DNA of 64,000 nucleotides from Lysobacter sp. yr284 (GTDB lineage: Bacteria; Pseudomonadota; Gammaproteobacteria; Xanthomonadales; Xanthomonadaceae). The position numbers were made by a program, and so were the translations under genes. Location: NCBI RefSeq assembly GCF_900107375.1, contig NZ_FNPT01000013.1, forward strand, positions 18,004 through 82,003, in the 5' to 3' direction. Below the pieces are notes generated by a model. The model did no database searches. It had not been told where the DNA came from and saw nothing but the letters and a program-made list of their open reading frames with translations. Of this stretch, positions 2 to 63,560 are shown in pieces (position 1 is the stretch's first letter; the number at the start of each line of letters is the position of its first letter).

Positions 2-700
2 GCTGCCGAACAGGCCGAGGCCGAGCGTCTCGAAGCTGAGCGCGTCGCCGCCGAACAGGCCGAAGCCGAACGTCTCGAAGCTGAGCGTGTTGCGGCCGAG
101 CAAGCCGAGGCCGAGCGCCTCGAAGTCGAGCGCACTGCCGCCGAGCAGGCCGAAGCCGAACGCATCGCGGCGCAGAAGGCCGAGGCCGACCGCATCGCCG
201 AAGAAGAGCGCCTGGAGTACGAGCGCCTGGAGGCGCAGTACGCCGCCGAGGCCGAAGCCGCGCGTCAAGAAGCCGAACGCGCCGAGACCGAAAAGGCCGA
301 GGCGCAACGTCTGGCCGCCGAGCACCTCGAAGCCGAGCGCCTCGCGGCCGAGCAAGCCGAAGCCGAACGCCTCGAAGCCGAGCGCGTCGCTGCTGAGCAA
401 GCCGAAGCCGAACGCCTCGAAGCCGAACGCGTCGCCGCTGAGCAAGCCGAAGCCGAACGCCTCGAAGCCGAGCGCGTCGCTGCCGAACAGGCCGAAGCCG
501 AGCGCCTCGAAGCCGAGCGCGTCGCCGCCGAGCAGGCCGAAGCCGAGCGTCTCGAAGCCGAACGCGTCGCCGCGGAGCAGGCCGAAGCCGAGCGTCTCGA
601 AGCCGAATGCGTCGCCGCGGAGCAGGCCGAAGCCGAACGCCTGGAATACGAACGCCTGGAAGCGCAGTACGCCGCCGAGCGGCTGGCCCGCGATCAGGCC
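2..700 (+). repeat. 42-bp coding minisatellite (14-residue [14 protein letters not shown]-type repeats)
   Basis: In-frame tandem array encoding a highly charged helical linker in the CheA homolog. The unit is 42 bp (14 residues). The most regular block, about 330-640, has some seven near-identical copies; the copies before 250 are more diverged and are separated from it by a non-repeat Glu/Ala/Arg stretch. Predicted structure is a long single helix or coiled coil upstream of the Hpt domain. Arrays like this commonly vary in copy number. Confidence 0.9.
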
Positions 701-3244
701 CAGGCCGATGCGCTGGAGCCGGCCTACCTGCACGACGCCGCGCACCTGGACGAGCAGGCGCCTGCGCCGGCCGCCAACGACGAAGCCGAACCCGCCCTCG
801 CCGCGACGACCGTCGCCGGCGTGCCGGCGGCGCTGGCCGCGGCGTTCGCCCGCGCCGCCAACGCCGATCCGGATCCGGACGAGTCGCTGGACCTGAGCGA
901 GCTCGACCCCGAACTGGTCGACATCTTCGTCGAGGAAGGCGGCGACCTACTCGACCATTCCGACGGCCTGCTCGCGCAGCTGCGCGAAACGCCGGGCGAA
1001 CGCGAGCTGCTGGTCGGCCTGCAGCGCGACCTGCACACGCTCAAGGGCGGTGCGCGCATGGCCGGCATCATGGCCGTGGGCGAACTCGGCCACGTCATGG
1101 AATCGCTGCTGGAAGCGGTGGTCGACCACCGCACCGAACTGGGCCGCGACAGCGTCGCCTTGCTCGAGCGCGGTTTCGACCGCCTGCACGCCATGGTCAC
1201 CCGGGTCGGCCAGCGCAAGGCGATCGCCATGCCGGCCGCGCTGATCGCGACGTTCGAAGCGCGTTCGCGCGGCGAGCTGACCCTGGGCGCGATCGAGGCG
1301 CCCGCCGCCGTCGCCGCGCCCGAGCAAACCGCCGACGACGACACCGGCCTCAAGCCGCTGTCCGCGCCGATCGCCGACGCCGCGCCGCTGGCCGACGACG
1401 ACGACATCGGCGTGCGCGCGCCGCAGGAGCAGGTGCGCATCCGCGCCGACCTGCTCGACCGCCTGGTCAACTACGCCGGCGAGGTCGCGATCTACCGCGC
1501 CCGGCTGGAGCAGCAGCTCGGCGCGTTCCGCGGCGCGATCGCGGAAATGGCCCAGACCAACCTGCGCATGCGCGACCAGCTGCGTCGCCTGGAAATCGAA
1601 ACCGAGGCGCAGATCATCGCGCGCTACCAGCGCGAGGGCGATGCCGGCGAGCATTCCTTCGACCCGTTGGAACTGGACCGTTTCTCGACCCTGCAGCAGC
1701 TCTCGCGCGCGCTGTCGGAATCGGCGGCCGACCAGAACAGCCTGCAGATCACCCTCGACGACCTGACCCGCCAGTACGAAACCCTGCTGCTGCAGCAGTC
1801 GCGGGTGAGCTCGGAGCTGCAGGAAGGCCTCATGCGTACGCGCATGGTGCCGTTCGACACGCTGCTGCCGCGCCTGCGCCGCGTGGTGCGCCAGGCGTCC
1901 AGCGAACTGGGCAAGCAGGTCGCGCTGAAGCTGGAAGGCACCCAGGGCGAACTCGACCGCAACGTGCTCGAGCGCATGACCGCGCCGCTGGAACACATGC
2001 TGCGCAACGCGGTCGCGCACGGCCTGGAAACCCCGGCCAGGCGCCGCGCCGCCGGCAAGGTGGACGAAGGCACGGTGCGCATCGCGGTGCGCCGCGAAGG
2101 TTCGGAAGTGGTGCTGGAAGTCGCCGACGACGGCGCCGGCCTGGACCGCGCGGCGATCCGCCGCCGCGGCGAGGAGCGCGGGCTGGTCCGCAGCGACGCG
2201 GTGCTGTCCGACTCCGACCTGGACATGCTGATCCTGGAGCCGGGCTTCTCCACCGCCGACGAGGTCAGCCGTCTGTCCGGCCGCGGCGTCGGCATGGACG
2301 TGGTCGCCAGCGAAGTGCGCCAGCTCGGCGGCGCGCTCGACATCCAGTCCACGCCCGGCCAGGGCGTGCGCTTCACCCTGCGCCTGCCGCAGACGCTCGC
2401 GGTCACCCAGGCGGTGTTCGTGCGCATCGGCGACACCACCTTCGCCGTGCCGATCGCCTCGGTGCGCGGCGTCGGCCGGCTCTCGCGCGACTTGCTCGAC
2501 CAGGGCGACGTGGCCTACCGCTACGGCGGCGAGGACTACCACGTGCACGACCTGGGCGTGCTGGTCGGCCACGCGCCGGCCAAGGCCGAAGGCCAGCTGC
2601 AGATGCCGTTGCTGCTGATCCGCTCGGGCGACCTGCGCGCGGCGGTGTCGGTGGACCAGGTCGTGGGCAACCGCGAAATCGTGGTCAAGCCGGTCGGCCC
2701 GCAGGTGGCCTCGGTGCCGGGCATCTTCGGCGCCACCATCATGGGCGACGGCCGCGTGGTGGTGATCCTCGACGTCGCCCCGCTGGTGCGCCGCCGCACC
2801 GCGCAGTTGCTGGACTTCGCCCAGAGCGCGCCGCCGCCGGCGGTGCCGGTCGAGGCGCGCAAGGTGCCGCTGGTGATGGTGGTCGACGACTCGGTCACCA
2901 TGCGCAAGGTCACCGGCCGCGTGCTGGAGCGCCACAACTTCGAAGTGGTCGCGGCGAAGGACGGCATCGACGCGCTCGAGCGCATGGCCGAGCGCGTGCC
3001 CGACCTGATGCTGCTCGACATCGAGATGCCGCGCATGGACGGCTACGAATTGGCCACGCAGATGAAGGCCGATCCGGTCCTGCGCAACGTGCCGATCGTG
3101 ATGATCACCTCGCGCAGCGGCGAGAAACACCGCCAGCGCGCGTTCGAGATCGGCGTCGAACGCTATCTCGGCAAGCCATACCAGGAGCCGGAATTGATTC
3201 GGAACGTGTTCGAACTGTTGGGAATCGCGCGTCACCATGGCTGA
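2..3244 (+). CDS. chpA: ChpA/PilL-like hybrid chemotaxis histidine kinase, 5' end outside window
   Basis: CheA-type kinase of a type IV pilus (Pil-Chp) chemosensory system; it autophosphorylates an Hpt histidine and passes phosphate to receivers. The frame is open from base 2, so the N-terminus lies upstream. Visible order: Glu/Ala-rich 14-residue repeats (to about 700); one Hpt domain with HTLKG (His codon 1034-1036); dimerisation helices; HATPase with N box RNAVAHG, G1 DDGAG and G2 GRGVGMD; a CheW-like domain; and a C-terminal receiver with DDS, phospho-acceptor Asp in LLDIEMP (codon 3017-3019) and Lys in GKP. Pseudomonas ChpA carries many Hpt domains; only one is visible here, so others may lie upstream. 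The stop overlaps the start of the next gene by 8 bp, indicating one operon. The family call is confident; the assignment to Pil-Chp rests on domain order and the CheB/CheW neighbours. Confidence 0.9.
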
Positions 3245-5540
3245 CGGCGATCGTCGTGTAGTGTTGTTGGCGCGCGCGGGCGTGGCCTGCGAGCGCCTGC
3301 GCAATGCGCTGGTCGAGGCCGGCGCGCAGTTGGTCCTGGAAGGCGATCCGACCGTGCTCGACCCCAAGGCGCTGGATGCGGCCGACCCCGACGTGGTCGT
3401 GGTCGTGCTCGATCCGGCCGCCGAGGACGCGCTGGACCGGTTCGAGAACGTGCTGGTGGATCCCTCGATCGAGGTGATTTTCGAGGAGGCCGAACTGGCC
3501 GCCGCGCGCGAGGGCTGGGACGCGGCGCGCTGGGCGCGTCATCTCACCGCCAAGCTGCATCGCCACGACGATGTGCTGCCGCCGGGCCGCGAGCCCGAGC
3601 AGCCGCCGGCGCCGGCGTTGCAGGCCGAAGGGTTCCAGCGGCCGGTGCAGGAAGGCTCGCCGCTGGCGCAGGAGCCGGCCGACGTGCCGGCGCCGGTCGC
3701 CAGCGACAACGTGCTGGCGTTCGTGCGCCCCGGCGCCGCGGCCGCGCTGGCCGCCGCCGAGCTTGCGCCGGCATCGGCCGAGGTCTCGGTCGCTGCGCCG
3801 TCGCCGCAGGGCGAGGACGCCGCGGCCGCCGAATACACCCTCGACTTCGCCGAGACGGCGCCGCAAGCCGAGTACATCGGGTTCGACGAGGGCGCCGCGC
3901 GAGTGACGTTCGACGCCGTCGAGCCCGCGCCGCAGGTTGACCCGGACGCGGCCGGCCTGGATTCGATCGGCCTGGATTCCAGCGCGCTCGATTCGGCCGA
4001 GTTCGAATCGACCGAGCTCGAATCGGCCGACCTCGATTCGACCCGCCTGGACTCGCTCGACTTCGAGTCCGCCGGTTTCCAGTCGCCGGCAAGCGAACCG
4101 CCCCGCCACACCGCCGATCGCTTCGACTCCGCCGATTTCGGCGAGATCGAGGAAATCGAAGCGGTCGAAGCGCTGCCTGCGTTCGATCCCGACGACGAAC
4201 CGCCGCCGGCGCTTGCGGCGCATGTCAGTTTCGATCCGGTCTCGGCCGAATCGCCGGTGGATCCGCTGTCGTTCGGCGGCGAATCGCTGGGCGAGCTCGA
4301 CCGCGTCGCGCCGATCGGCTCGGCCGGCGACCGCGTGCTCACCGAGCCGCCGCCGCTGCCCGACGAGGCGCGCGAGTTCTTCGCCCGCCAGGCGCTCGGC
4401 CCGAGCGACGAATCCGCCGGCGCCGACGCGCCGGCCGCGTCGCACGACGGTGGCGACGTAACGTTCGACTTCTCCAACCTGACCCTGGAAGCCGGCGACT
4501 ACTCGACCCAGGTGCCGGGCCAGGCGCAGCCGTTCGACGCCCAGCACCACGACTGGCAGGCCGAAGGCGCCGACGCCGGCGTGCCGCCGCTCGACGAGGC
4601 CGGGCTGGGCGAGATGGAAATGTGGCGCGCGCCGGCGCCGGGCCAGGTGCAGGAACTGGTCGACCTGGACGCCGCATTCGCCGCGCACGGCGACGATGCC
4701 GGCGCGGCGCTCGACTTCGACGACAGCCGCGCGCCGCCGCCGCAGGCGGCCACGCCCGCGCGCAGCTTCGAGACCACGCTGGAGTTCGCCAGCGACGAAA
4801 CCGCGCCGGCGCAGCCCAAGGGGCCCGCGCCGTCGGCGCCGTCGGTGCCGGATTGGTCGTTCGCCGACGAGACCAGCCTGGTCGAGGCCGCGACCGGCCA
4901 GAGCGGCGCGCATGCGCCGCCGGGGCCGCGGCACGACCTGGAAGAGATCGAACGGCGCATCTCCGGCCTGGAACTGGTCGACGACAGCCCGGCCGACGCC
5001 GGCGCCGTCGCCAACGGCGGCCGTGGCGGCGCGGTGCTGGTGCTGGCCGGCATCGGCGGCCCGGACGCGGTGCGCCAGCTGCTCGGCGCGCTGCCGGACA
5101 ACTTCGACCGCCCGGTGCTGGTGCAACAGCGCCTGGACGGCGGCCGCTACGACAAGCTGGTCGCGCAGATGCAGCGCGCCACGCCGGTGCTGGTGAAGCT
5201 GGCCGAAGCCGGCGCACGCACCATCGCCGGGGTGATCTACATCCTGCCGGCGGGAATCGGCATCGAGGTCTCCGACAACGGCATCCAGTTCGCCGAAGGC
5301 GGCGAGGTGCTCGAAGCCTTGCCGGCCGGCGACAGCGCGGTGCTGTTGTTCAGCGGCGCCGAACCGGCCCAGGTCGATGCGGCGATGGCCTTGGCCGCGC
5401 AGGGCGCGATGGTCGTCGGACAGGCGCCGGACGGTTGCTACGACGCGGCTGCGGCCAGCGCCGCGATCGCGCGCGGCGCCGGCAGCGGCCAGCCGGCCGA
5501 ATTGGCGGCGCGGCTGGCGGCGCGCTGGTCGCGGCTCTGA
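3237..5540 (+). CDS. CheB-like chemotaxis protein with degenerate methylesterase domain (ChpB position)
   Basis: 767 residues, overlapping the end of the kinase gene by 8 bp. The first ~100 residues resemble a receiver-like fold but lack a clear DD...D...K set. A long acidic Ala/Pro/Asp/Glu-rich linker (about 115-590) contains pentapeptide-like repeats at about residues 241-285. The last ~170 residues align by eye with CheB methylesterase, but the three catalytic positions are altered: the Ser of the ASTGG loop reads AGIGG, the His of TQH reads VQQ, and the Asp of the GMGxDG loop is missing from the corresponding SGAEPA segment. By position this is the ChpB of the Pil-Chp cluster. It is probably a scaffold or regulator rather than an active methylesterase. 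Homology of the C-terminus is moderately sure; inactivity is inferred from eye alignment. Confidence 0.75.
3951..4090 (+). repeat. 15-bp tandem repeats encoding pentapeptide-like A[DE][LF][DE]S units
   Basis: About nine consecutive 15-bp units inside the CheB-like gene encode five-residue repeats such as [20 protein letters not shown] and RLDSL. The pattern (small residue, acidic, Leu/Phe, acidic, Ser) resembles the A(D/N)LXX consensus of pentapeptide-repeat helices, though nine units would make only about two coils. Confidence 0.75.
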
Positions 5541-5596
5541 TCGCGGGTCCGGCTTCGCGCGCCCGCTGACGGGCGTGCGGATGCGCGGGCCCGGCG

Positions 5597-5677
5597 TCGC
5601 CGGCCGCGGCCGGCGATCCGCGCGGGACGCGCGTCCCGCGTCGCGGCCTCCACGCGCCGCCGCAGCGATGCGGCGCG
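5597..5677. other. Three consecutive perfect inverted repeats between chpB-like and cheW-like genes
   Basis: Within the 240-bp gap 5541-5780: a perfect 20-bp palindrome at 5597-5616, a second at 5621-5640, and a hairpin with 8-bp arms at 5653-5660/5670-5677. None is followed by a T tract, so a standard intrinsic terminator is not supported. They may be mRNA-stabilising or attenuating structures, or simply a result of high GC. Confidence 0.55.
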
Positions 5678-5780
5678 CGGCGATACCCCGGCAGCGCGCG
5701 CGCGCCGCCACCGTCCACACGGCTCCGCCCGGCGGAGCTTCAGCCACACGGCCGCGCGCGACGCGGCGAGGAACCGCGCG

Positions 5781-6347
5781 ATGTCCAACGAAATTCCCGA
5801 TCGCGACGACGCTGCGGCCGACCAGGCCGCCGACAGCGTGCAGGCGCAGGCCGCGGCCGACGACGGCGCGCTCGCCCTGAGCGCCGCCAACGACATCCGC
5901 GGCGTCATGATCCAGGTGGCCGGCGCGCGCCTGCTGCTGCCCAACGCCACCATCGCCGAGGTGCTGTCGTACGCGCCGCCGGCGCCGATCGCCAACGCCC
6001 CGCGCTGGCTGCTCGGCCAGATCCGCTGGCGCGGCTGGAGCCTGCCGATGATCGCCTTCGGCGAACTCTCCGGCCTGGCGCGCGAACCCGGCGGCCTGGG
6101 CAGCAAGGTGGTCGTGCTCAAGGCGCTCAGCGCCGCCTCGCGCCTGCCGTACTTCGCGATGCTGACCCAGGGCTTCCCGCGCCTGGTCACCGTGTCGCCG
6201 TCGGGCCTGTACCTGCAGAGCCGCGACGACGAAGCGCTGCCGTTGGGCGTGCAGGCGCGGGTGCGGCTCAACGACGACCCCGCGCTGCTGCCGGACCTGG
6301 AAGCGGTCGAGGCGATGATCGGCGAAGCCCTCGCGCAAGCCGCGTGA
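5781..6347 (+). CDS. CheW-like chemotaxis coupling protein (ChpC position)
   Basis: 188 residues. A short acidic N-terminal extension (1-35) precedes a CheW domain: a recognisable receptor-coupling fold with LLLPNATIAEVL near residue 50, the hydrophobic PRWLLGQIRWRGWSLPMIAF segment near 75, and a C-terminal helix. CheW proteins link chemoreceptors to the CheA kinase. It follows the CheA and CheB homologs after a 240-bp hairpin-rich gap, as chpC follows chpA-chpB in Pseudomonas. A GAGG ribosome-binding motif lies about 10 bp before the ATG. Its stop overlaps the next GTG start by 4 bp, though the downstream acyltransferase is unlikely to be chemotactic. PilI is an alternative name; position favours ChpC. 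Confidence 0.8.
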   Translation: MSNEIPDRDDAAADQAADSVQAQAAADDGALALSAANDIRGVMIQVAGARLLLPNATIAEVLSYAPPAPIANAPRWLLGQIRWRGWSLPMIAFGELSGLAREPGGLGSKVVVLKALSAASRLPYFAMLTQGFPRLVTVSPSGLYLQSRDDEALPLGVQARVRLNDDPALLPDLEAVEAMIGEALAQAA

Positions 6348-8149: not shown

Positions 8150-9295
8150 ATGCGATTCGAACGAGTGTGGTGGGGGGCGCTGTCGTTGCTGGCGGCGTCG
8201 CCCGCGTGGGCCGCCGACGGCTACAGCGTGCTGGGCGACTGGCCGGTCAAGGCGACGAGCGAATCCGGGATCGAGGCCGGGCTCAAGGGCAACCTCAGCT
8301 ACGACGTCGCCCGCTTCGGCGGCGCCGACGGCGGCGCGTTCGCCGACGACGACGCCTGGCGCCGGCAGGAACTCAGCGCCTTCGTGCGCAAGCCCGGCAT
8401 GTTCGAGCTGGCCCTGGGCTACGACTTCCGCAACGAGGTCTGGCTCGACAACTTCGTGCGCATCTCCGGCGCCGCGGGCGACCTGCGCATCGGCCAGTTC
8501 AAGACCCCGGTGGGCTACGAGGAAAGCGCGGTCAGCACCACCGCGACCACGTTCATGGAGCGGGCGCTGCCGGTGACCGCGTTCTACGCCGGCCGCCGCC
8601 TGGGCGCGGACTGGACCTACGAGAAGATCCCGAACTGGTATCTCAACGCCGCGGTCCAGGCCGGCGGCGATCTGCTCGGCGACAACCGCGGCCGCACGCT
8701 CGGCGCGCGCGCGGTGTTCAACCCGGTCAAGGACGAGAACCAGGTGCTGCACCTGGGGCTGTCGGCCTCGAACGAGAAGCGCGACGACGACAGCCTGCGC
8801 CTGCAAGTGCGCCCGGAAGCGTTCCTGGCCGCGCGCCGGCTGGTCGATACCGGCGCGTTGAACCGGGTCGAAGGCATCGCCCGCTATGGCGTGGAAGCGA
8901 TCTGGCAACGCGGCCCGCTGCTGCTGCAGAGCGAATACCTGCGCATCGGCGTCGACCGCGATGGCGTCGCCGACTACAGCGCCGACGGCTATTACCTCGC
9001 CGCCTCGTGGGTGCTGACCGGCGAGAAGCGCGGCTACAAGAGCGCCGCCTTCGGCAACCTCAAGCCGCGCCGCGACTGGGGCGCGGTGGAACTGGCCGCG
9101 CGCTATTCGCACATCGACCTCGACGATGCCGGCGTCGCCCTCGGCGGCCGCCAGCGCGACTGGACCTTCGGCGCCAACTGGTACCTCGGCCAGCATTTCC
9201 GGTTGCAGTTCAACTACGTGTGGGCCGAGGCGCGCCGGCGCGGAACCGGACTCGATCCGCAGATCGCGCAGCTGCGCGCGCAGATCTATTTCTGA
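8150..9295 (+). CDS. Phosphate-selective porin O/P-type outer-membrane protein
   Basis: 381 residues. The ATG at 8150 gives a clean Sec signal peptide (basic MRFER, hydrophobic core, cleavage near SPAWA-AD) and is preceded by GGGAGG, so longer upstream reading is rejected. The mature part has alternating amphipathic strands typical of a 16-stranded porin, with OprO/OprP-like landmarks: LRIGQFKTPVGYEESAVS near 115-135, ALPVTAFYAGRRLGADWTYE, and a C-terminal strand ending in a terminal aromatic (AQIYF). OprO/P porins pass phosphate or polyphosphate; anion preference is not provable here. It lies 67 bp before the membrane kinase, in the same direction, so the signalling cassette may be co-transcribed with it. 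Confidence 0.88.
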   Translation: MRFERVWWGALSLLAASPAWAADGYSVLGDWPVKATSESGIEAGLKGNLSYDVARFGGADGGAFADDDAWRRQELSAFVRKPGMFELALGYDFRNEVWLDNFVRISGAAGDLRIGQFKTPVGYEESAVSTTATTFMERALPVTAFYAGRRLGADWTYEKIPNWYLNAAVQAGGDLLGDNRGRTLGARAVFNPVKDENQVLHLGLSASNEKRDDDSLRLQVRPEAFLAARRLVDTGALNRVEGIARYGVEAIWQRGPLLLQSEYLRIGVDRDGVADYSADGYYLAASWVLTGEKRGYKSAAFGNLKPRRDWGAVELAARYSHIDLDDAGVALGGRQRDWTFGANWYLGQHFRLQFNYVWAEARRRGTGLDPQIAQLRAQIYF

Positions 9296-9362: not shown

Positions 9363-11519
9363 ATGCGTGTGATGAAGCGGGTGGACAGCGGCGGTCTGTG
9401 GGGACGCTACTCGGCCATCATGGTGTCGGTGGCGTCGTCGCTGGTCATCGCGGCGGTGATGGTGGTGGTCAGCGTGCGGCTCGGCGAGGAGATCGGCCAG
9501 CGCGTGATCGTGCGCGACCTGGCTGGCCAGGAGCGCACCTCGATCCAGATCGCGCTGCGCGCGCTGATGCAGATGGAGCGCGAACAGCGAGCCGGCCGGG
9601 CGCCGTCGCCGGAACTGGCCAAGACGCTGCGCGCGCGCGCCGAGCGCATCGGCCACACCATCCAGGTGTTCCGCGAAGGCGGCCGCATGCCCGAGGAAAG
9701 TCAGCGCAAGCCGCTGCGGCCGGAATGGTTCAGCAAGGAATTCGCCGACAGCAACGCCAAGGTCGATGCCCTGTGGCGGCCGTTCGAGCAGCGCATCCAG
9801 CGCTTGCTCGACGCGCCGGAGCTGCCGCCGGAGCAGGTGGCCGACGCGGTTCAATACGGCCTGACGAACATCGAGCCGCTGCTGCAGGAAATGACCGCGC
9901 TGATCGGCATCGTGCAGGAGCGCACCGAAGCCAACAGCCTGCTGCTGGCGGAAGTGCAGTACGGCGGCGCGGCCGCGCTGCTGCTGAACTTCCTGTTCAC
10001 CGTGTTCGTCGCCCTCGGCCGCCTGCGCGCCGGCGACCGCGCCGTGGTCCAGTCCAACAAGCAGACCCAGGACATCCTGGCGACGGTGAAGGAAGGCCTG
10101 TTCCTGGTGTCGAGCGACTTCAGCATCGGCGACCGCATGTCGCAGTCGCTGCCGCAGATCATGCAGCGCCGGGTCGAGCCGGGCATGGACCTGATCGAGC
10201 TGCTGCGGCCGATGGTGGCCGCGCAAACCCTGGAAGCGGCCCGCGATTACCTCGGCCTGCTGTTCGGCAAGCGGGTCAAGGAGAACCTGGTCGCCAGCCT
10301 CAACCCGCTGTCGGAAGTGCCGGTGGCCGGCGGCAGCGACGGGCGCGGCCAGGCCCAGCCGCGCTACCTCAATTTCCAGTTCAACCGCGTGCAGGAAGGC
10401 GAGGGCACCGTGCACCTGCTGGTGACGGTGTCGGACGCGACCGAGCGGGTGCGCCTGACCCAGGAAATCGCCGCCGCCAAGACCCGCACCCGCGAGGAGA
10501 TGGAGAGCCTGCTGCGCGTGCTCAGCCGCGACTCGGCCGAAGTGCGCTTCTTCCTGCACCGCATCGGCGTGGTGCTGGAACGCATCAACGACGATCTGCG
10601 CCAGGCCGCCGCGCGCCGCGGCGGCACCGACTATCTGGAACTGGTCCACGCGGTCTTCCGCGACGTGCACTCGCTCAAGAGCGAGGCGGCGGCGCTGAAC
10701 CTGGAAATGCTGGAGGCGCTGGCGCACAACTTCGAGGTCGACCTGATCGGCCTGCGCGACCGCGGCGAGGTCGAGGGCGCCGACATGGTCAAGATGACCG
10801 TGCACCTGGACGCCATGTTCGAGTGCGCGGCGACGATCCGCGAGTTCCTCGACCGCATCGGCGGCGGCGACAACGCCCGCGCGGCGGCCGCGGCGACGCC
10901 GGCGCAGCGCCTGGTCGAAGGCTGGGGCGGGCTGGCCGAACGCATCGCCCGCGAGCAGGGCAAGCAGGTGCAGTTGCAGATGCAGCTCGATGGCCTGGAG
11001 CGGGTGCCGGCGGAAACCCTGACCGCCTTGCGCGCGATCGGCCTGCAACTGCTGCGCAACGCGGTCGCGCACGGCATCGAGCCGGCGCAGGAGCGCGCGG
11101 CGCTGGGCAAGCCGGCGACCGGCGCTGTCGCTTTCCGCAGCGCCGACGCCGGCAGCCGCCAGATCGAGCTGAGCGTGCGCGACGACGGCCGCGGCATCGA
11201 CGTGGCGCGGGTGCGCGCGGCGCTGGCGGCGTCGGGGCGCTACAGCCCGGAGCAACTGGACTCGCTCAGCGACCGCGACGCGATGATGAAGATCTTCGAG
11301 CCGGGCGTATCGACCGCGGCCGATCGCGGCGACCGCGACGCCGGCCACGGCGTCGGCATGGACCTGGTGATGAAGCAGGTGCGGGCGATGGCCGGGACCA
11401 TTTCGATGTCGACCAAGGTCGGCGCCTACACCGAATTCCGCATCCGCCTGCCGGTGGCCGAGGCCAGGCCGGCGCCCGCCGCCGCGGCCGAGGGCGGCGA
11501 TTTCCAACTCACTTTCTGA
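9363..11519 (+). CDS. Membrane CheA-like histidine kinase (Hpt + HATPase, no CheW domain)
   Basis: 718 residues. The ATG at 9363 has GGGGAG about 8 bp upstream. Helices at about 15-38 and 200-218 flank a ~160-residue periplasmic sensor. After a PAS-like segment, an Hpt-like helix bundle carries VHSLKSEA with His436 (codon 10668-10670). The HATPase domain follows, with N box [10 protein letters not shown] (Asn566), G1 DDGRG (about 607) and G2 GHGVGMD (about 661). This is the CheA catalytic layout (Hpt phospho-acceptor in trans, CheA-like ATPase) without the CheW regulatory domain and fused directly to a membrane sensor. A receiver and CheX follow within 12 bp and by overlap, implying a private phosphorelay. 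Input signal unknown. Very similar in plan to the gene at 12587. Confidence 0.85.
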   Translation: MRVMKRVDSGGLWGRYSAIMVSVASSLVIAAVMVVVSVRLGEEIGQRVIVRDLAGQERTSIQIALRALMQMEREQRAGRAPSPELAKTLRARAERIGHTIQVFREGGRMPEESQRKPLRPEWFSKEFADSNAKVDALWRPFEQRIQRLLDAPELPPEQVADAVQYGLTNIEPLLQEMTALIGIVQERTEANSLLLAEVQYGGAAALLLNFLFTVFVALGRLRAGDRAVVQSNKQTQDILATVKEGLFLVSSDFSIGDRMSQSLPQIMQRRVEPGMDLIELLRPMVAAQTLEAARDYLGLLFGKRVKENLVASLNPLSEVPVAGGSDGRGQAQPRYLNFQFNRVQEGEGTVHLLVTVSDATERVRLTQEIAAAKTRTREEMESLLRVLSRDSAEVRFFLHRIGVVLERINDDLRQAAARRGGTDYLELVHAVFRDVHSLKSEAAALNLEMLEALAHNFEVDLIGLRDRGEVEGADMVKMTVHLDAMFECAATIREFLDRIGGGDNARAAAAATPAQRLVEGWGGLAERIAREQGKQVQLQMQLDGLERVPAETLTALRAIGLQLLRNAVAHGIEPAQERAALGKPATGAVAFRSADAGSRQIELSVRDDGRGIDVARVRAALAASGRYSPEQLDSLSDRDAMMKIFEPGVSTAADRGDRDAGHGVGMDLVMKQVRAMAGTISMSTKVGAYTEFRIRLPVAEARPAPAAAAEGGDFQLTF

Positions 11520-11531
11520 TCCGGGGGCCGG

Positions 11532-11900
11532 ATGAAACTGCTGATCGTGGACGACTCCAACGTGATCCGCCAACGCATCGCGCGGCTGGCGGGCGACGCG
11601 CGGCTGCCGAACCTGGAGATCGTCGGCCAGGCCCGCAACGGCGCCGAAGCGCTGAGCCTGTTCGTGCGCCACCGCCCCGACGTGGTGACCATGGACCTGA
11701 CCATGCCCGAACTGGGCGGCGTGGAATGCACCGAACAGATCGTCGCCATCGACGACGACGTCAACATCCTGGTGGTCTCGGCGCTGAGCGACAAAACCAC
11801 CGCGATCACCGCGCTCAAGAAGGGTGCGCGCGGATTCCTCTACAAACCTTTCACCGACGACCAACTGGTCGAGGCCCTGCTGGAGATGCTGCCGACATGA
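11532..11900 (+). CDS. Single-domain CheY-like response regulator
   Basis: 122-residue stand-alone receiver: LIVDDSN at the N-terminus, phospho-acceptor Asp55 in VVTMDLTMPE, the Ser of VVSALSDK, and conserved Lys in LYKPF. No output domain. It starts 12 bp after the kinase and overlaps the following cheX-like gene by 4 bp (ATGA). The natural reading is that it takes phosphate from the upstream membrane kinase and is dephosphorylated by the CheX protein. Its effector target is unknown; flagellar or pilus motors are possible but nothing here proves it. Confidence 0.93.
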   Translation: MKLLIVDDSNVIRQRIARLAGDARLPNLEIVGQARNGAEALSLFVRHRPDVVTMDLTMPELGGVECTEQIVAIDDDVNILVVSALSDKTTAITALKKGARGFLYKPFTDDQLVEALLEMLPT

Positions 11901-12358
11901 GCGACCTCAACGAAACCGAGATCAAGGTCTTCATCGACGCGGTCACCAACTACTTCAACCAGCTCACCCATGAGCCGGCGAGCGTGCGCGGCGCGTTCCT
12001 CGACGACAACGGCGGCACCGCGCCGGTGTTCGACTACAGCGGCCAGATCGCGGTCAGCGGCCAGTTCCGCGGCACCATCACCGTGTCGGCGCCGCGGGCG
12101 ATGATCCGCCACTTGTTGCTGGCGCTCAACGAGAGCGACCAATCCGACGCCAACCTGCGCGACACCATCGGCGAACTGGCCAACACCCTGGCCGGCAACG
12201 CGCGCAAGCACTTCGGCGGCGAGATGGAGATCTCGGTGCCGCGCACCGCCGCCGGCGCGATCGGCACCGCCGGCTCGCGCAAGCGGCCGTACGTGATCAT
12301 GGTGAGCTGGAAGACCTACAGCGCTTCGCTGGTGGTGGATATCGAGCGGCTGGAATAA
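11897..12358 (+). CDS. cheX: CheX-like chemotaxis phosphatase
   Basis: 153 residues of the CheC/CheX/FliY phosphatase family. The catalytic helix matches the family signature [DS]-x3-E-x2-N: DTIGELANTLAGNARKHFG at about residues 92-110, followed by the conserved Pro of EISVP. CheX removes phosphate from CheY-type receivers. It overlaps the receiver gene (ATGA), so the two are translationally coupled and almost certainly act together. The N-terminus (NETEIKVFIDAVTNYFNQL) is the usual CheX opening helix. Confidence 0.88.
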   Translation: MSDLNETEIKVFIDAVTNYFNQLTHEPASVRGAFLDDNGGTAPVFDYSGQIAVSGQFRGTITVSAPRAMIRHLLLALNESDQSDANLRDTIGELANTLAGNARKHFGGEMEISVPRTAAGAIGTAGSRKRPYVIMVSWKTYSASLVVDIERLE

Positions 12359-12586
12359 GCCGCGGACGTTTCGCGAAGCCGGCTCCGGCCGGGCGCTGTC
12401 GGCGGGCGGAATCCCCCCTGATGCGGCCGCCGTGCGGGGCCGAACCCTGCCGCGCGGTCGGGGCCGGTCTTCGCGATCTGCAATGGATGCGACGAGCGTC
12501 GCGACTGGCGGCGGCCGCGGCGGCGGACGTCGCGCCGCCGGCGCCGCATTCGCCGCGCCGGTGCAGCGGCGCAAAAGGAGCAAGCG

Positions 12587-14932
12587 ATGTCCGAACATGG
12601 CAACGATCCCGATGACCGCCTGCGGCCGCCGCTGGCCGCGTTCGCCGTTGCCGCGCTCGGGCTGGCGACGATGGCGGCGGCGCTGACGGCGTATTCGGCC
12701 GAGGGGCTGGCGGCGGCGGTGCGGCTGGCGTCGGTGCGTTATTGCCTGGGTCTGGCCGCGCTCATGGGCGCGATCACGACCATCGGTTCGGTCGCGTTCC
12801 TGGCGCTGGGGCCGCTGCGCCGGCAGCGCGAAGCGCAGGCCGAGCGCGCGCAGTGGCGCGAGCGTTGCGAAGACCTGCTGCACGCGCTTCCCGACGGCGT
12901 GTGCCTGATCGATGCGGATTTCATCGTCTGCGAACCGGTGTCGCCGTCGCTGTCGGCGGCGCTGCGGTGCAAGCTGTGGCCGGGCATGGATCTGGTCGAG
13001 GCGTTGCGGCCGCTGCTCGCCGCCGAGACCGTCGAGGCCCTGCGCGCGCACCTGCGCCAATGCTTCGCGGCGCGCGCCGGCGCCGCGCCGGCCGGGCGCA
13101 ATCCGCTGGCGGAGGCGACGTTTCCGGGGCCGCCGTCGCGGCCGTCGCACTGGGGCTTCCGCTTCGAGCCGGTGCGCCATGGCGAACGCGTCGCCTACCT
13201 GCTGGTGATCGCGACCGACATCGGCGAGCGCCAGCGCATCGCCCGCGAACTGGCCGGCGCGCGCATGCGCCTGCGCGCGCAGATCGACGGCCTGCTGCGC
13301 GCCTGCCTGCGCGACGGCTTGCAGATCCGCAGTTGCCTCGGCCACGCCGACGCCGCGCTCGAACGCGCCCGCGTGCGCCTGCCGCGCCTGCGCGCCGCGG
13401 TCGGCGCGGCCGAGCGCGAGGCCTCGCTGCGCAGCCTGTTGCAGGAGGCGCGCACGATCAAGCGCGAGGCGGCCGAGATCGAACTGGAACTGCTGGAGAC
13501 GCCGGCCCACCATCTGGAACTGGACCTGCTCGAACGCGCGGCCGCGGCGCCGGCCGGCGACGAGGGCGCGCGCCTGGCGGGACACCTGGAGCTGTTGGCC
13601 GAGCGCATCGCGATGGTGCGCGATTTCGTGGTCGGCCTGGACGCGCGCGGCGCGCGCAAGAGCATCGACGAACGCGCGGGCGAGCGGTCGGAAAGCGGCG
13701 CAGCCGCGGCCGTCGTGCCGGCGCCGCGCGCTGCCGCGGTCGCGCCTGCGTCGGTGCCGGCGGCGACGGTAGCGGAACCCGGAGAGGGAGCCGCGTTCGT
13801 CGCCCGTCTGCGTCGCCACACCGGCGAGCCCGGATCGGATGAGGCCCCGCACGATGCGGGCGCGGCGGCGGTTGCGCCGGCGATGGCTGCGGCGGACGAA
13901 GCGATGCCGGCTGCGACAACGGCGCATGGACCGATGAAGTCGGCGGACGCTCCCGCTCCTGCGCCGCGCCCGAGCGAACCCACCTCCGCGACACCCTCGC
14001 CGCGGCCTGTGTCCGCGCCGTCGGCCGCGATCGCGCCTACGCCGGTCGCCGAGCGCAGGATTCCCGCTCCGGTTGCGGTTTCGGTATCGCCGCCGCCTTC
14101 GCGCCTGGCCGACGCCGCCGTCGCTGCGTTGGTGCTCTCGCCGCAGCGCAGCGATCCGCAGCGCTGCGATGCGGCCGCAGCGCGCTTAGCGTTTTCGCCG
14201 CGCGGTGGGAGCCTCGGCGCGGGCGCAGCGGAAAGCGTCGGGCCTGAAGGCCCGCCCACGTCGCCAGCGCCAGCGGCGGACGCTCTCGCTGCGATTGCGG
14301 CCGATCCCGCCGATCCGTTCGCGCTGGTGCCGTTGCTGGCCTTGTCCGGCGGCGGCGAGGCCGGGTTGCCAGCGGATCGGGCCGCCTTCGCCGACTGGGC
14401 CGCGCTGGCGCGCCGCCTTGCCGGCGAACAGGGCAAGGCGGTGCGGGTGGAGGCGGTGCTCGACCCGTTCCTGCGCCTGCCGCCGGCGCGGGCGGCGATG
14501 TTGCGCGACGTCGGCATGGAACTGGTCGCCAACGCGGTGCTGCACGGGATCGAGCCGATGTCGGCGCGGCGCCGGATCGGCAAGGACCCGGTCGGCGCGG
14601 TCCGCCTGACCCTGGGCTTCGACGAACGCGAAGGCTGGCTGTTCTGCGCGCGCGACGACGGCCGCGGCGTCGATCTGGCGCGGCTGCGCGCCGCGTTGGT
14701 TAGCAGCGGTGCGTGCACGCCGGACCAAGCGCAGCGGCTCAGCGAACGCGAGGCGATCGTGAAAGTGTTCGAACCCGGCGTCACCACGGCGATGCGCGCC
14801 GACGGCGCGCGCGGGCACGGCCTGGGGCTGCCGAACGCGGTCGAGCGGCTGCGCGGCCTGCAGGCGCGGGTATCGCTGGTGACGGTGCCGGGGCGTTCGA
14901 CCGAGGTGCGGATCGCTTGGCCGCCGGGGTGA
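12587..14932 (+). CDS. CheA-like kinase paralog lacking the phospho-accepting histidine
   Basis: 781 residues, paralog of the kinase at 9363. Two hydrophobic helices (about 14-35 and 48-70) open the protein with almost no periplasmic loop. The PAS-like segment (GMDLVEALRPLLAAETVEAL) and Hpt-like bundle align with the upstream paralog, but the expected His of HSLKSEA is Arg289 (ARTIKREA, codon 13451-13453). A ~200-residue Ala/Pro-rich linker (about 360-560) is unique to this copy and contains a repeat element. The HATPase is intact: N box ANAVLHGIE (Asn649), G1 DDGRG (about 690), G2 GHGLGL (about 742). It could phosphorylate the partner's Hpt in trans or act as a pseudokinase. The 228-bp gap after cheX holds no gene I recognise. 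Confidence 0.8.
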   Translation: MSEHGNDPDDRLRPPLAAFAVAALGLATMAAALTAYSAEGLAAAVRLASVRYCLGLAALMGAITTIGSVAFLALGPLRRQREAQAERAQWRERCEDLLHALPDGVCLIDADFIVCEPVSPSLSAALRCKLWPGMDLVEALRPLLAAETVEALRAHLRQCFAARAGAAPAGRNPLAEATFPGPPSRPSHWGFRFEPVRHGERVAYLLVIATDIGERQRIARELAGARMRLRAQIDGLLRACLRDGLQIRSCLGHADAALERARVRLPRLRAAVGAAEREASLRSLLQEARTIKREAAEIELELLETPAHHLELDLLERAAAAPAGDEGARLAGHLELLAERIAMVRDFVVGLDARGARKSIDERAGERSESGAAAAVVPAPRAAAVAPASVPAATVAEPGEGAAFVARLRRHTGEPGSDEAPHDAGAAAVAPAMAAADEAMPAATTAHGPMKSADAPAPAPRPSEPTSATPSPRPVSAPSAAIAPTPVAERRIPAPVAVSVSPPPSRLADAAVAALVLSPQRSDPQRCDAAAARLAFSPRGGSLGAGAAESVGPEGPPTSPAPAADALAAIAADPADPFALVPLLALSGGGEAGLPADRAAFADWAALARRLAGEQGKAVRVEAVLDPFLRLPPARAAMLRDVGMELVANAVLHGIEPMSARRRIGKDPVGAVRLTLGFDEREGWLFCARDDGRGVDLARLRAALVSSGACTPDQAQRLSEREAIVKVFEPGVTTAMRADGARGHGLGLPNAVERLRGLQARVSLVTVPGRSTEVRIAWPPG
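14203..14261. repeat. REP-like element (family A) inside a coding sequence
   Basis: GTGGGAGCC...GCGTCGGGCCTGAAGGCC...CCCAC, the same palindromic family found between genes elsewhere in the window, here lying in frame in the kinase paralog and encoding GGSLGAGAAESVGPEGPP in its linker. Confidence 0.8.
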
Positions 14933-63093: not shown

Positions 63094-63363
63094 ATGCGAG
63101 TCGTCTACGAAGCCGCCCACCTGATCGACGCCCATCTGGTCCGCCATGCGCTGGAAGACGCCGGGATTCCGGTGTTCCTGCGCGGCGAGGCGCTGATCGG
63201 CGGCATGGGCGAGCTGCCGTTGTTCGGCGCGGTGCAGGTGTGCGTGCCGGATGCGGCCTGGCCGCAGGCGGACGAGGTGGTCCAGGCGCTGGCCCTGGGC
63301 GACCCGCCGACCGAGCCGGAGCCGCAGGCGGCGATGCCGCCGCCGGCGTGGCTGCCGGCCTGA
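63094..63363 (+). CDS. DUF2007 small protein
   Basis: 89 residues. DUF2007 (putative signal-transducing) core: [39 protein letters not shown] and [17 protein letters not shown], a ferredoxin-like fold similar to PII-type small proteins, plus a Pro-rich tail. GAAGGA upstream of the ATG. Divergent from glnS. Biological role unknown. Confidence 0.88.
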
Positions 63364-63404
63364 GCGGCGCCACCGCCGTTCGCACGGGCGCCTGAAGCGC
63401 CCAG

Positions 63405-63560
63405 CCGCGGCCCCGGCCGCGGTCGCGCCGGGAGCGTCCCGGCGCCCAGCACCGTCTTTCCAACCCTTCGCGCCCGCGGCGGGGCGGCCGGCATCGCGCC
63501 GGCCGGCCCGCGCCGGACGCTCCGTCCGCGGCGCGCCGCGCACGGGCCATCGGAGTTTTC
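63405..63560. other. Run of GC-rich perfect hairpins before the EamA gene
   Basis: In the 271-bp gap 63364-63634: CCGCGGCC-CC-GGCCGCGG (63405-63422), GCGCCGGGA-GCG-TCCCGGCGC (63425-63445), GGCCGGC-ATCGC-GCCGGCC (63486-63504), then a weaker GGACG/CGTCC pair. No T tracts. Similar in style to 5597-5677. Confidence 0.5.

Follow-up and report, generated by a model that had tools for sequence, protein, structure and literature searches.

A receptor-fused, CheW-free kinase, a receiver and CheX as a probable chemosensory-type signalling module in Lysobacter, with a companion kinase lacking the phospho-acceptor histidine

CheA is regarded as dependent on CheW and receptors, and the known CheX-CheY pairs belong to flagellar systems of receptor, CheW and CheA. 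In the available sections of the survey by Berry et al. 2023 (PMC10782961), CheW is present in 100% of CheA proteins, and a pair of Rhodobacter sphaeroides kinases is described in which CheA3 carries the phospho-acceptor and CheA4 has dimerisation, kinase and CheW domains but no acceptor; the two act together, both have CheW domains and both are localised with the cytoplasmic receptor array. ChpA, according to the available sections of PMC12632253, contains numerous Hpt-type domains together with a receiver and works with the receptor PilJ. No published description of the K1-REC-CheX system presented here was found in the open-access literature, most subscription journals being outside the scope of the search, and the first-pass annotation of this DNA had likewise known of no described system with the exact four-gene set. 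It looks like a compact, hitherto undescribed signalling circuit.

The locus was analysed within a window of 64,000 nucleotides, the whole stretch of DNA under study, from the 6.25 Mb genome of a soil bacterium that belongs to Lysobacter by its relatives (Table 1). The window K1 is 80% identical to K1 of L. enzymogenes ATCC 29487. From sequence comparison, K1, REC and CheX probably constitute a receptor-fused, CheW-free chemosensory-type phospho-signalling module, with K2 as a companion that lacks the acceptor histidine and likely works with K1. The order and coordinates of all four genes stood as first annotated, with 12 nt between the K1 stop and the REC start and a 4-nt overlap (ATGA) of REC and CheX, but the row is not gapless throughout, as K2 follows CheX only after 228 nt. 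A promoter scan gave nothing exceeding chance. Against NCBIfam, CheX had no match and K1 matched only below the cut-off.

Table 1. Features of the locus and its surroundings; positions are those of the window unless a locus is named.
Feature	Position	Strand	Evidence or remark
Pil-Chp-type cluster end	2..6347	+	Pfam domains; context, outside module
ChpA-like protein, cut by window	2-3244	+	CheW, H-kinase_dim
CheB-methylesterase protein	3237-5540	+	Pfam
CheW-type protein	5781-6347	+	Pfam
OprO/OprP-type porin	8150..9295	+	PF07396 E 2e-63 (searched from 8153); start codon by eye
K1, membrane sensor / PAS / Hpt / CheA-type ATPase kinase	9363..11519	+	718 aa
K1 N-terminal TM - periplasmic helical bundle - TM	9393..10034	+	~residues 11-224; TM helices by eye
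K1 PAS-type region	10056..10448	+	~residues 232-362; conserved block in A1 profile
K1 Hpt domain	10530..10862	+	~residues 390-500; Pfam Hpt E 6e-5
K1 phospho-acceptor His436 codon	10668..10670	+	HxxKxE motif
K1 HATPase_c, CheA P4-like	11034..11459	+	HATPase_c E 4e-13; 1i58 E 3e-22
K1 C-terminal peptide (D/E)FQLTF	11499..11516	+	conserved in Lysobacter K1
REC, stand-alone receiver	11532..11900	+	122 aa; Response_reg E 1e-25
REC phospho-acceptor Asp55 codon	11694-11696	+	conserved receiver Asp
CheX phosphatase (predicted from family and motif)	11897..12358	+	153 aa; PF13690 E 5e-17
CheX catalytic motif D89-x3-E93-x2-N96	12161-12184	+	PF13690 protein
K2, K1 paralog without phospho-acceptor His	12587..14932	+	781 aa; HATPase_c E 2e-7
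K2 codon at Hpt His position, Arg289	13451..13453	+	K1/K2 alignment
GTCGGGCCTGAAGGCCCTCCCAC repeat copies	14237, 14959, 15104(-), 19701, 19842(-), 51367(-)		one inside K2 linker coding sequence
Sister cluster, L129	L129 9901-12409
Sister cluster, L130	L130 5474-8247

From the N- to the C-terminus, K1 consists of a transmembrane helix, a periplasmic helical bundle, a second transmembrane helix, a PAS-type region, an Hpt domain containing His436 and a HATPase_c domain. Its earlier reading as a membrane kinase with an Hpt, a CheA-like ATPase and no CheW was borne out by a Pfam scan at E<=1, in which neither CheW nor H-kinase_dim (PF02895) matched K1; the ChpA of the window, used as a positive control in the same scan, gave CheW at E 1e-17 and H-kinase_dim at E 7e-4. 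A scan of 11 K1-family proteins (E limits 1, 1 and 0.1) gave no match to either domain, H-kinase_dim being often overlooked by HMMER according to the available part of the CheA survey (PMC10782961). The K1 C-terminus lies about 20 residues past the ATPase, and only a short stretch separates the Hpt and ATPase regions. Measured against CheA, K1 has the P1/Hpt with its histidine and the P4 ATPase but shows neither a P3 dimerisation nor a P5 CheW match, and on this composition is best regarded as CheA-like yet not CheA.

The Pfam Hpt match of K1 is weak (23.6 bits, cut-off 24.6). The A1 profile, made from the PAS-Hpt part, matched the CheA P1 structure 1tqg at E 3.6e-9, with designed helical proteins matching too and one of them scoring better, and the Hpt of the K1 model gave a Foldseek TM of 0.82 on the target for 1tqg, but at E 0.057. 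The Hpt histidine is kept in 14/14 K1 proteins and in 23/23 trio K1 proteins, two overlapping sets; residue counts here and below cover 23 trio loci, five from Lysobacter and 18 others, with locus L126 and the other four Lysobacter trios outside them. In K1, the ATPase boxes N, G1 and G2 were compared across the trio loci. The first-pass architecture of both kinases was incomplete, having overlooked a PAS region that lies between the membrane part and the Hpt. The fold was obtained for K2 only, where the region homologous to that of K1 was modelled as PAS and matched solved PAS domains; K1 itself gave no Pfam PAS match and a low-confidence model there. The AlphaFold2 model of K1, built from 4 alignment rows, was poor (mean pLDDT 53, pTM 0.33) and too weak to carry claims on interfaces. 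Its best-modelled portion is the sensor, for which Foldseek ranks 1-4 were NarQ sensor/transmembrane fragments with weak E of 0.007-0.016.

Compared with three other Lysobacter proteins, the window K1 is 38-59% identical in the sensor, 91-97% in the Hpt and 84-92% in the ATPase, and the divergent sensor part suits a changing ligand or an exchange of that part. The PilJ N-terminal domain PF13675 was matched by three of the eight Pfam-scanned extra-genus K1-family proteins (G069a, E 1e-13; G336, E 7e-13; G307, E 9e-6, slightly below the cut-off) and was not matched by the window K1. Over the sensor (window 9363-10034 versus L035, L038 and L039), pS was 0.36-0.43 and pN/pS 0.77-1.12, both above the rest of K1, and may reflect a recombinational swap of the sensor part.

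The distribution of the genes was followed in a genus sample of the source genome and 19 others, a class sample of 369 and a phylum sample of 398 genomes, with 100 relatives used for CheX. K1 was found in 9 of the 20 genus-sample genomes, accompanied by REC and CheX in all nine, and in every K1-positive genome the Lysobacter trio is inserted between genes that are presumably DUF5009-like and BioA. The flanking region was examined in six of the 11 K1-negative genus genomes. In five (G004, G007, G010, G015 and G019) the flanking genes are separated by 0.8-1.2 kb in which nothing matched the porin, the trio or K2; in the sixth, G014 (L049 8673-12851), porin and K2 are present and K1, REC and CheX have no match.

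Outside the genus, a search with whole K1 was abandoned, being swamped by generic CheA ATPase matches, and the K1 family was found with A1 instead; matches mainly on the Hpt columns (~158-262) were set aside as generic CheA. A1 gave some match in 206/369 class-sample genomes but reached E<1e-30 in only 12, the source genome and 11 others, a scattered distribution of the family. In the phylum sample, strong A1 matches were confined to the source genome and G184, the weaker ones in G767 and G670 representing the sister architecture described below. The 22 extra-genus K1-family matches comprise six in members of the order, among them the K1 of G099 (L048) that is cut at a contig end and stands outside the trio counts, and 16 in the class sample. 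REC and CheX lie directly downstream of K1 at 19 of the 21 uncut loci, counting L126 (G255), whose K1 is interrupted by runs of N and is absent from the tree; the locus listing omitted receiver matches below 50 bits. A further full trio (L161), from another order, is outside all counts. Among plasmids, 435 records matched K1, none across more than 80% of it, and among the matches listed all fell in the ATPase part.

An all-against-all comparison of the neighbours of 20 loci gave no real neighbour family at more than four loci besides the trio. One neighbour cluster spanning seven loci was rejected as a real family, its frames being antisense to the trio (genes were picked by longest frame). 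Amid otherwise unshared neighbours, mean identity to the window was 29% for K1, 55% for REC and 38% for CheX, and recurrence of the trio is, by this comparison, in excess of chance. Divergence of the three proteins was correlated (n=19, one Lysobacter kept; r 0.70 for K1-REC, 0.65 for K1-CheX and 0.53 for REC-CheX; permutation p 2e-4 each), a correlation that linkage by itself would give. The relay first proposed, self-contained and with sensor and kinase in one protein, is well supported for K1-REC-CheX by the conserved trio, the conserved catalytic residues and the restriction of strong CheX genes to K1-bearing genomes among 100 relatives, but not for a four-gene unit. When that set was checked by neighbourhood search, K2 was not found in three of the nine Lysobacter trio genomes, and the K2 of G014 stands without a trio. 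Judged from these occurrences, the core is K1-REC-CheX and K2 an add-on.

K2 is laid out as membrane segments (by eye), PAS, an Hpt-like bundle, a long linker and HATPase_c. Its designation as a second kinase paralog stands as far as paralogy is concerned, the K2 clade being the sister of Lysobacter K1 with support of 100/100, but K2 is no ordinary kinase, Arg289 having replaced the acceptor histidine. The histidine is absent from all eight K2 copies (Arg in six, Gln in two), whose ATPases largely retain the N, G1 and G2 boxes. K2 occurs in G014 and in six of the nine trio genomes, one of which, G018, has two copies; for the five K1-negative genomes outside the regions examined, its absence rests on the whole-K1 search, in which no match was K2-strong. 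A 23-base repeat, GTCGGGCCTGAAGGCCCTCCCAC, has six copies in the window with at most two mismatches and 0 in 100 shuffles.

The alternative that survives best, though a rather doubtful one, is that K2 is a decaying, functionless duplicate and not a companion kinase. The lost histidine and the absence of a K2 match from a third of the trio genomes are what decay would predict, as are a long tree branch (1.12), a long, variable linker containing a dispersed-repeat copy and pN/pS values in the Hpt-like part of 0.33, 0.55 and 0.73 between the window K2 and those of L. enzymogenes, G018 and G014 (0.47, 0.40 and 0.56 in the ATPase). The open frames are nevertheless long in 8/8 copies, the ATP-binding motifs persist, and against the K2 of G008 the Hpt-like part gives a ratio of 0.14 and the ATPase one of 0.24. 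The G014 values, from one pairwise comparison, would fit relaxed selection following trio loss.

A second clade without the histidine, found in other genomes, also argues against decay. L125 (G449) and L128 (G353), the only uncut K1-family genes that lack REC and CheX, come from genomes that also have a full trio, and carry Asn and Leu, respectively, at the acceptor column. The N-box Asn and DDG are retained in the two, with more divergence in the G2 boxes. Their clade is placed apart from K2 by a branch with support of 100/97 but sits within a poorly resolved group, both His-less clades being long branches and several rows, including K2 and L125, being of unusual composition. By this tree, the acceptor would have been lost, and the ATPase retained, at least twice. 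A sampled His-less paralog is present in eight genomes, seven of which have an intact trio, the exception being G014.

Three kb upstream of K1 ends a cluster that we take to be of Pil-Chp type, its kinase being presumably ChpA. A DUF5009-like gene and the porin are also located upstream. The reported lack of CheW and CheB holds inside 9363-14932, but CheA, CheB and CheW genes adjoin on the upstream side, and their products may cross-talk with the module in Lysobacter. The N-terminal part of the ChpA-like protein (window 2-745) is a long run of repeats. At the far end of the window, ARAGORN places a tRNA-Sec gene at 63345-63427 (-).

An alternative raised by this neighbourhood makes K1, REC and CheX an accessory branch of the Pil-Chp system next door, with ChpA as the main REC kinase and with CheX and K1 tuning type IV pilus signalling. 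The cassette does directly follow the ChpA-ChpB-ChpC-DUF5009 block at nine of nine Lysobacter trio loci, and the three distant K1 proteins with a PilJ-type sensor match, one slightly under the cut-off, point the same way. Such a branch is nonetheless unlikely, as the Pil-Chp block is kept in all six trio-less Lysobacter genomes inspected, and around the 22 extra-genus loci no match was found to ChpB, ChpC, the ChpA-type CheW or the ChpA dimerisation domain (tblastn E 1e-3, limited sensitivity; ~20 kb per locus, 7 kb for one). Membership of the trio in Pil-Chp as a general rule was rejected on the same contrast between the linkage in Lysobacter and the lack of matches at the other 22 loci.

The porin, 67 nt upstream of K1, adjoins it at 9/9 Lysobacter loci and had no match around the 22 extra-genus loci, and its placement just upstream of the kinase is in this way true of Lysobacter but was not found elsewhere. 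In G069, an Alginate_exp-type outer-membrane barrel (L043 6725-7894) lies directly 3' of the trio CheX; after the Lysobacter porin, it is the second outer-membrane barrel that adjoins the module.

REC has the residues of a CheY-type receiver, D7, D8, D55, S83 and K105 being invariant at 23/23 trio loci. The best solved matches of its profile are Thermotoga-type CheY (E ~1e-37), and CheY-3 of 3hzh, a structure solved with CheX and presumably from Borrelia, matched at E 4e-25. The D-x3-E-x2-N motif of CheX was confirmed as intact, with a PF13690 match and D89, E93 and N96 present. Across the 23 loci the Asp is found in 23, the Glu in 22 and the Asn in 22, the exceptions being Ser for Asn in G184b and Asp for Glu in G069a. 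The G184 locus (L123) contains two tandem trios separated by an additional CheX, the second trio being the one with the Ser.

A CheX match of any strength was present in 20 of the 100 relatives, and the 14 strong genes (E<=1e-15) all lie within trios, nine in Lysobacter, two in G069 and one each in G078, G081 and G093. The 11 K1-negative genomes of the genus gave no CheX match. In the class sample CheX occurs in 72/369 genomes, and just 14 of the 46 with E<1e-15 sit in trios; the notion that gammaproteobacterial CheX belongs generally to such trios was rejected on this count. Neighbours were inspected for 16 of the 32 non-trio class CheX (3-kb loci), the CheX frame not being picked in four. 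With a model of trio CheX, trio members scored 93-250 bits (model-building members included; lowest in G184), four class-sample trio CheX when rescored gave 175-196 bits, and the 12 scorable non-trio CheX gave 28-51 bits. The trio also suggests a role for a separate CheX subfamily. Although a sensor kinase with a receiver is the commonest bacterial signalling pair and CheX is also frequent in the class away from trios, an ordinary two-component pair with CheX as a bystander retained by linkage is very improbable given this separation in score and the conserved catalytic motif.

A sister architecture was present at L129 and L130, where genes for a CheX-domain protein and a stand-alone receiver come after that for a 4HB_MCP-HAMP-PAS-Hpt-HATPase kinase, in which CheW again had no match. 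Each cluster encodes a further protein, with a weak CheX match in L130 (E 0.027) and none in L129. It resembles the K1 trio in uniting a CheW-match-free sensor kinase, a CheX-domain protein and a receiver in one cluster, and differs in gene order, in its larger CheX-containing proteins and in a receiver only 26-29% identical to the window REC. In both clusters the CheX-domain protein and the further protein end in GELELF-like peptides. In K1, FQLTF follows a variable tail in 9/9 Lysobacter proteins and is absent from 18 other K1 proteins compared. Both kinds of tail are possible docking peptides.

From the architecture, residues, co-occurrence and phylogeny observed, we infer the phosphotransfer steps, the role of K2, the input and the output as follows. 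The periplasmic helical bundle and the cytoplasmic PAS domain would control the CheA-type catalytic core of K1, which by homology would phosphorylate His436 of K1. The phosphate would then pass to Asp55 of REC, and CheX, by its family and motif, would strip it from REC. Phosphorylated REC probably acts on a target encoded elsewhere. An output domain is absent from REC, and effector genes do not generally accompany the trio. K2, whose acceptor histidine is missing, cannot be a phospho-donor, but its ATP-binding domain is kept. Most likely it is a partner of K1, either phosphorylating His436 in trans, an idea that follows the precedent of CheA4, which has no acceptor domain and works with CheA3 (available sections of PMC10782961), or serving as a regulatory non-donor partner.

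A bolder reading, offered tentatively, takes the locus as a receptor and CheA core fused and freed of CheW and arrays, in one membrane protein, with a dedicated CheX, a repeatedly arising His-less, ATP-binding sister kinase that feeds or gates the donor in trans and, in Lysobacter, the C-terminal FQLTF in place of the P2 docking domain of CheA. If this were true, two sensors would control one Hpt and one receiver, and the locus would represent a distinct class of chemosensory pathway. For the preferred module, K1 would be a natural kinase with the P1 and P4 parts of CheA, its own sensor and a dedicated CheX, scattered through Gammaproteobacteria. The minimal three-protein system makes signal, kinase, receiver and phosphatase all directly testable, and the recurrent His-less companion does the same for the question of trans-phosphorylation versus decoy.

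Among known systems, the Thermotoga CheX-CheY and the CheX-CheY3 pair (3hzh) are alike in CheX family and motif and in REC profile. Pil-Chp (ChpA, PilG, PilH) shares a CheA-like kinase with stand-alone receivers and adjoins the trio in Lysobacter, but the window ChpA, unlike K1, has CheW. The residue pattern of K2, with the acceptor lost and the ATP-binding motifs kept, recalls CheA3/CheA4 of Rhodobacter sphaeroides, whereas K1 and K2 both look like membrane sensors and K1 retains its own ATPase. Compared with CheA itself (P1-P3-P4-P5), the K1 Hpt resembles P1 and the K1 ATPase resembles P4; unlike CheA, K1 is without a P3 or CheW match and carries its own transmembrane sensor and PAS.
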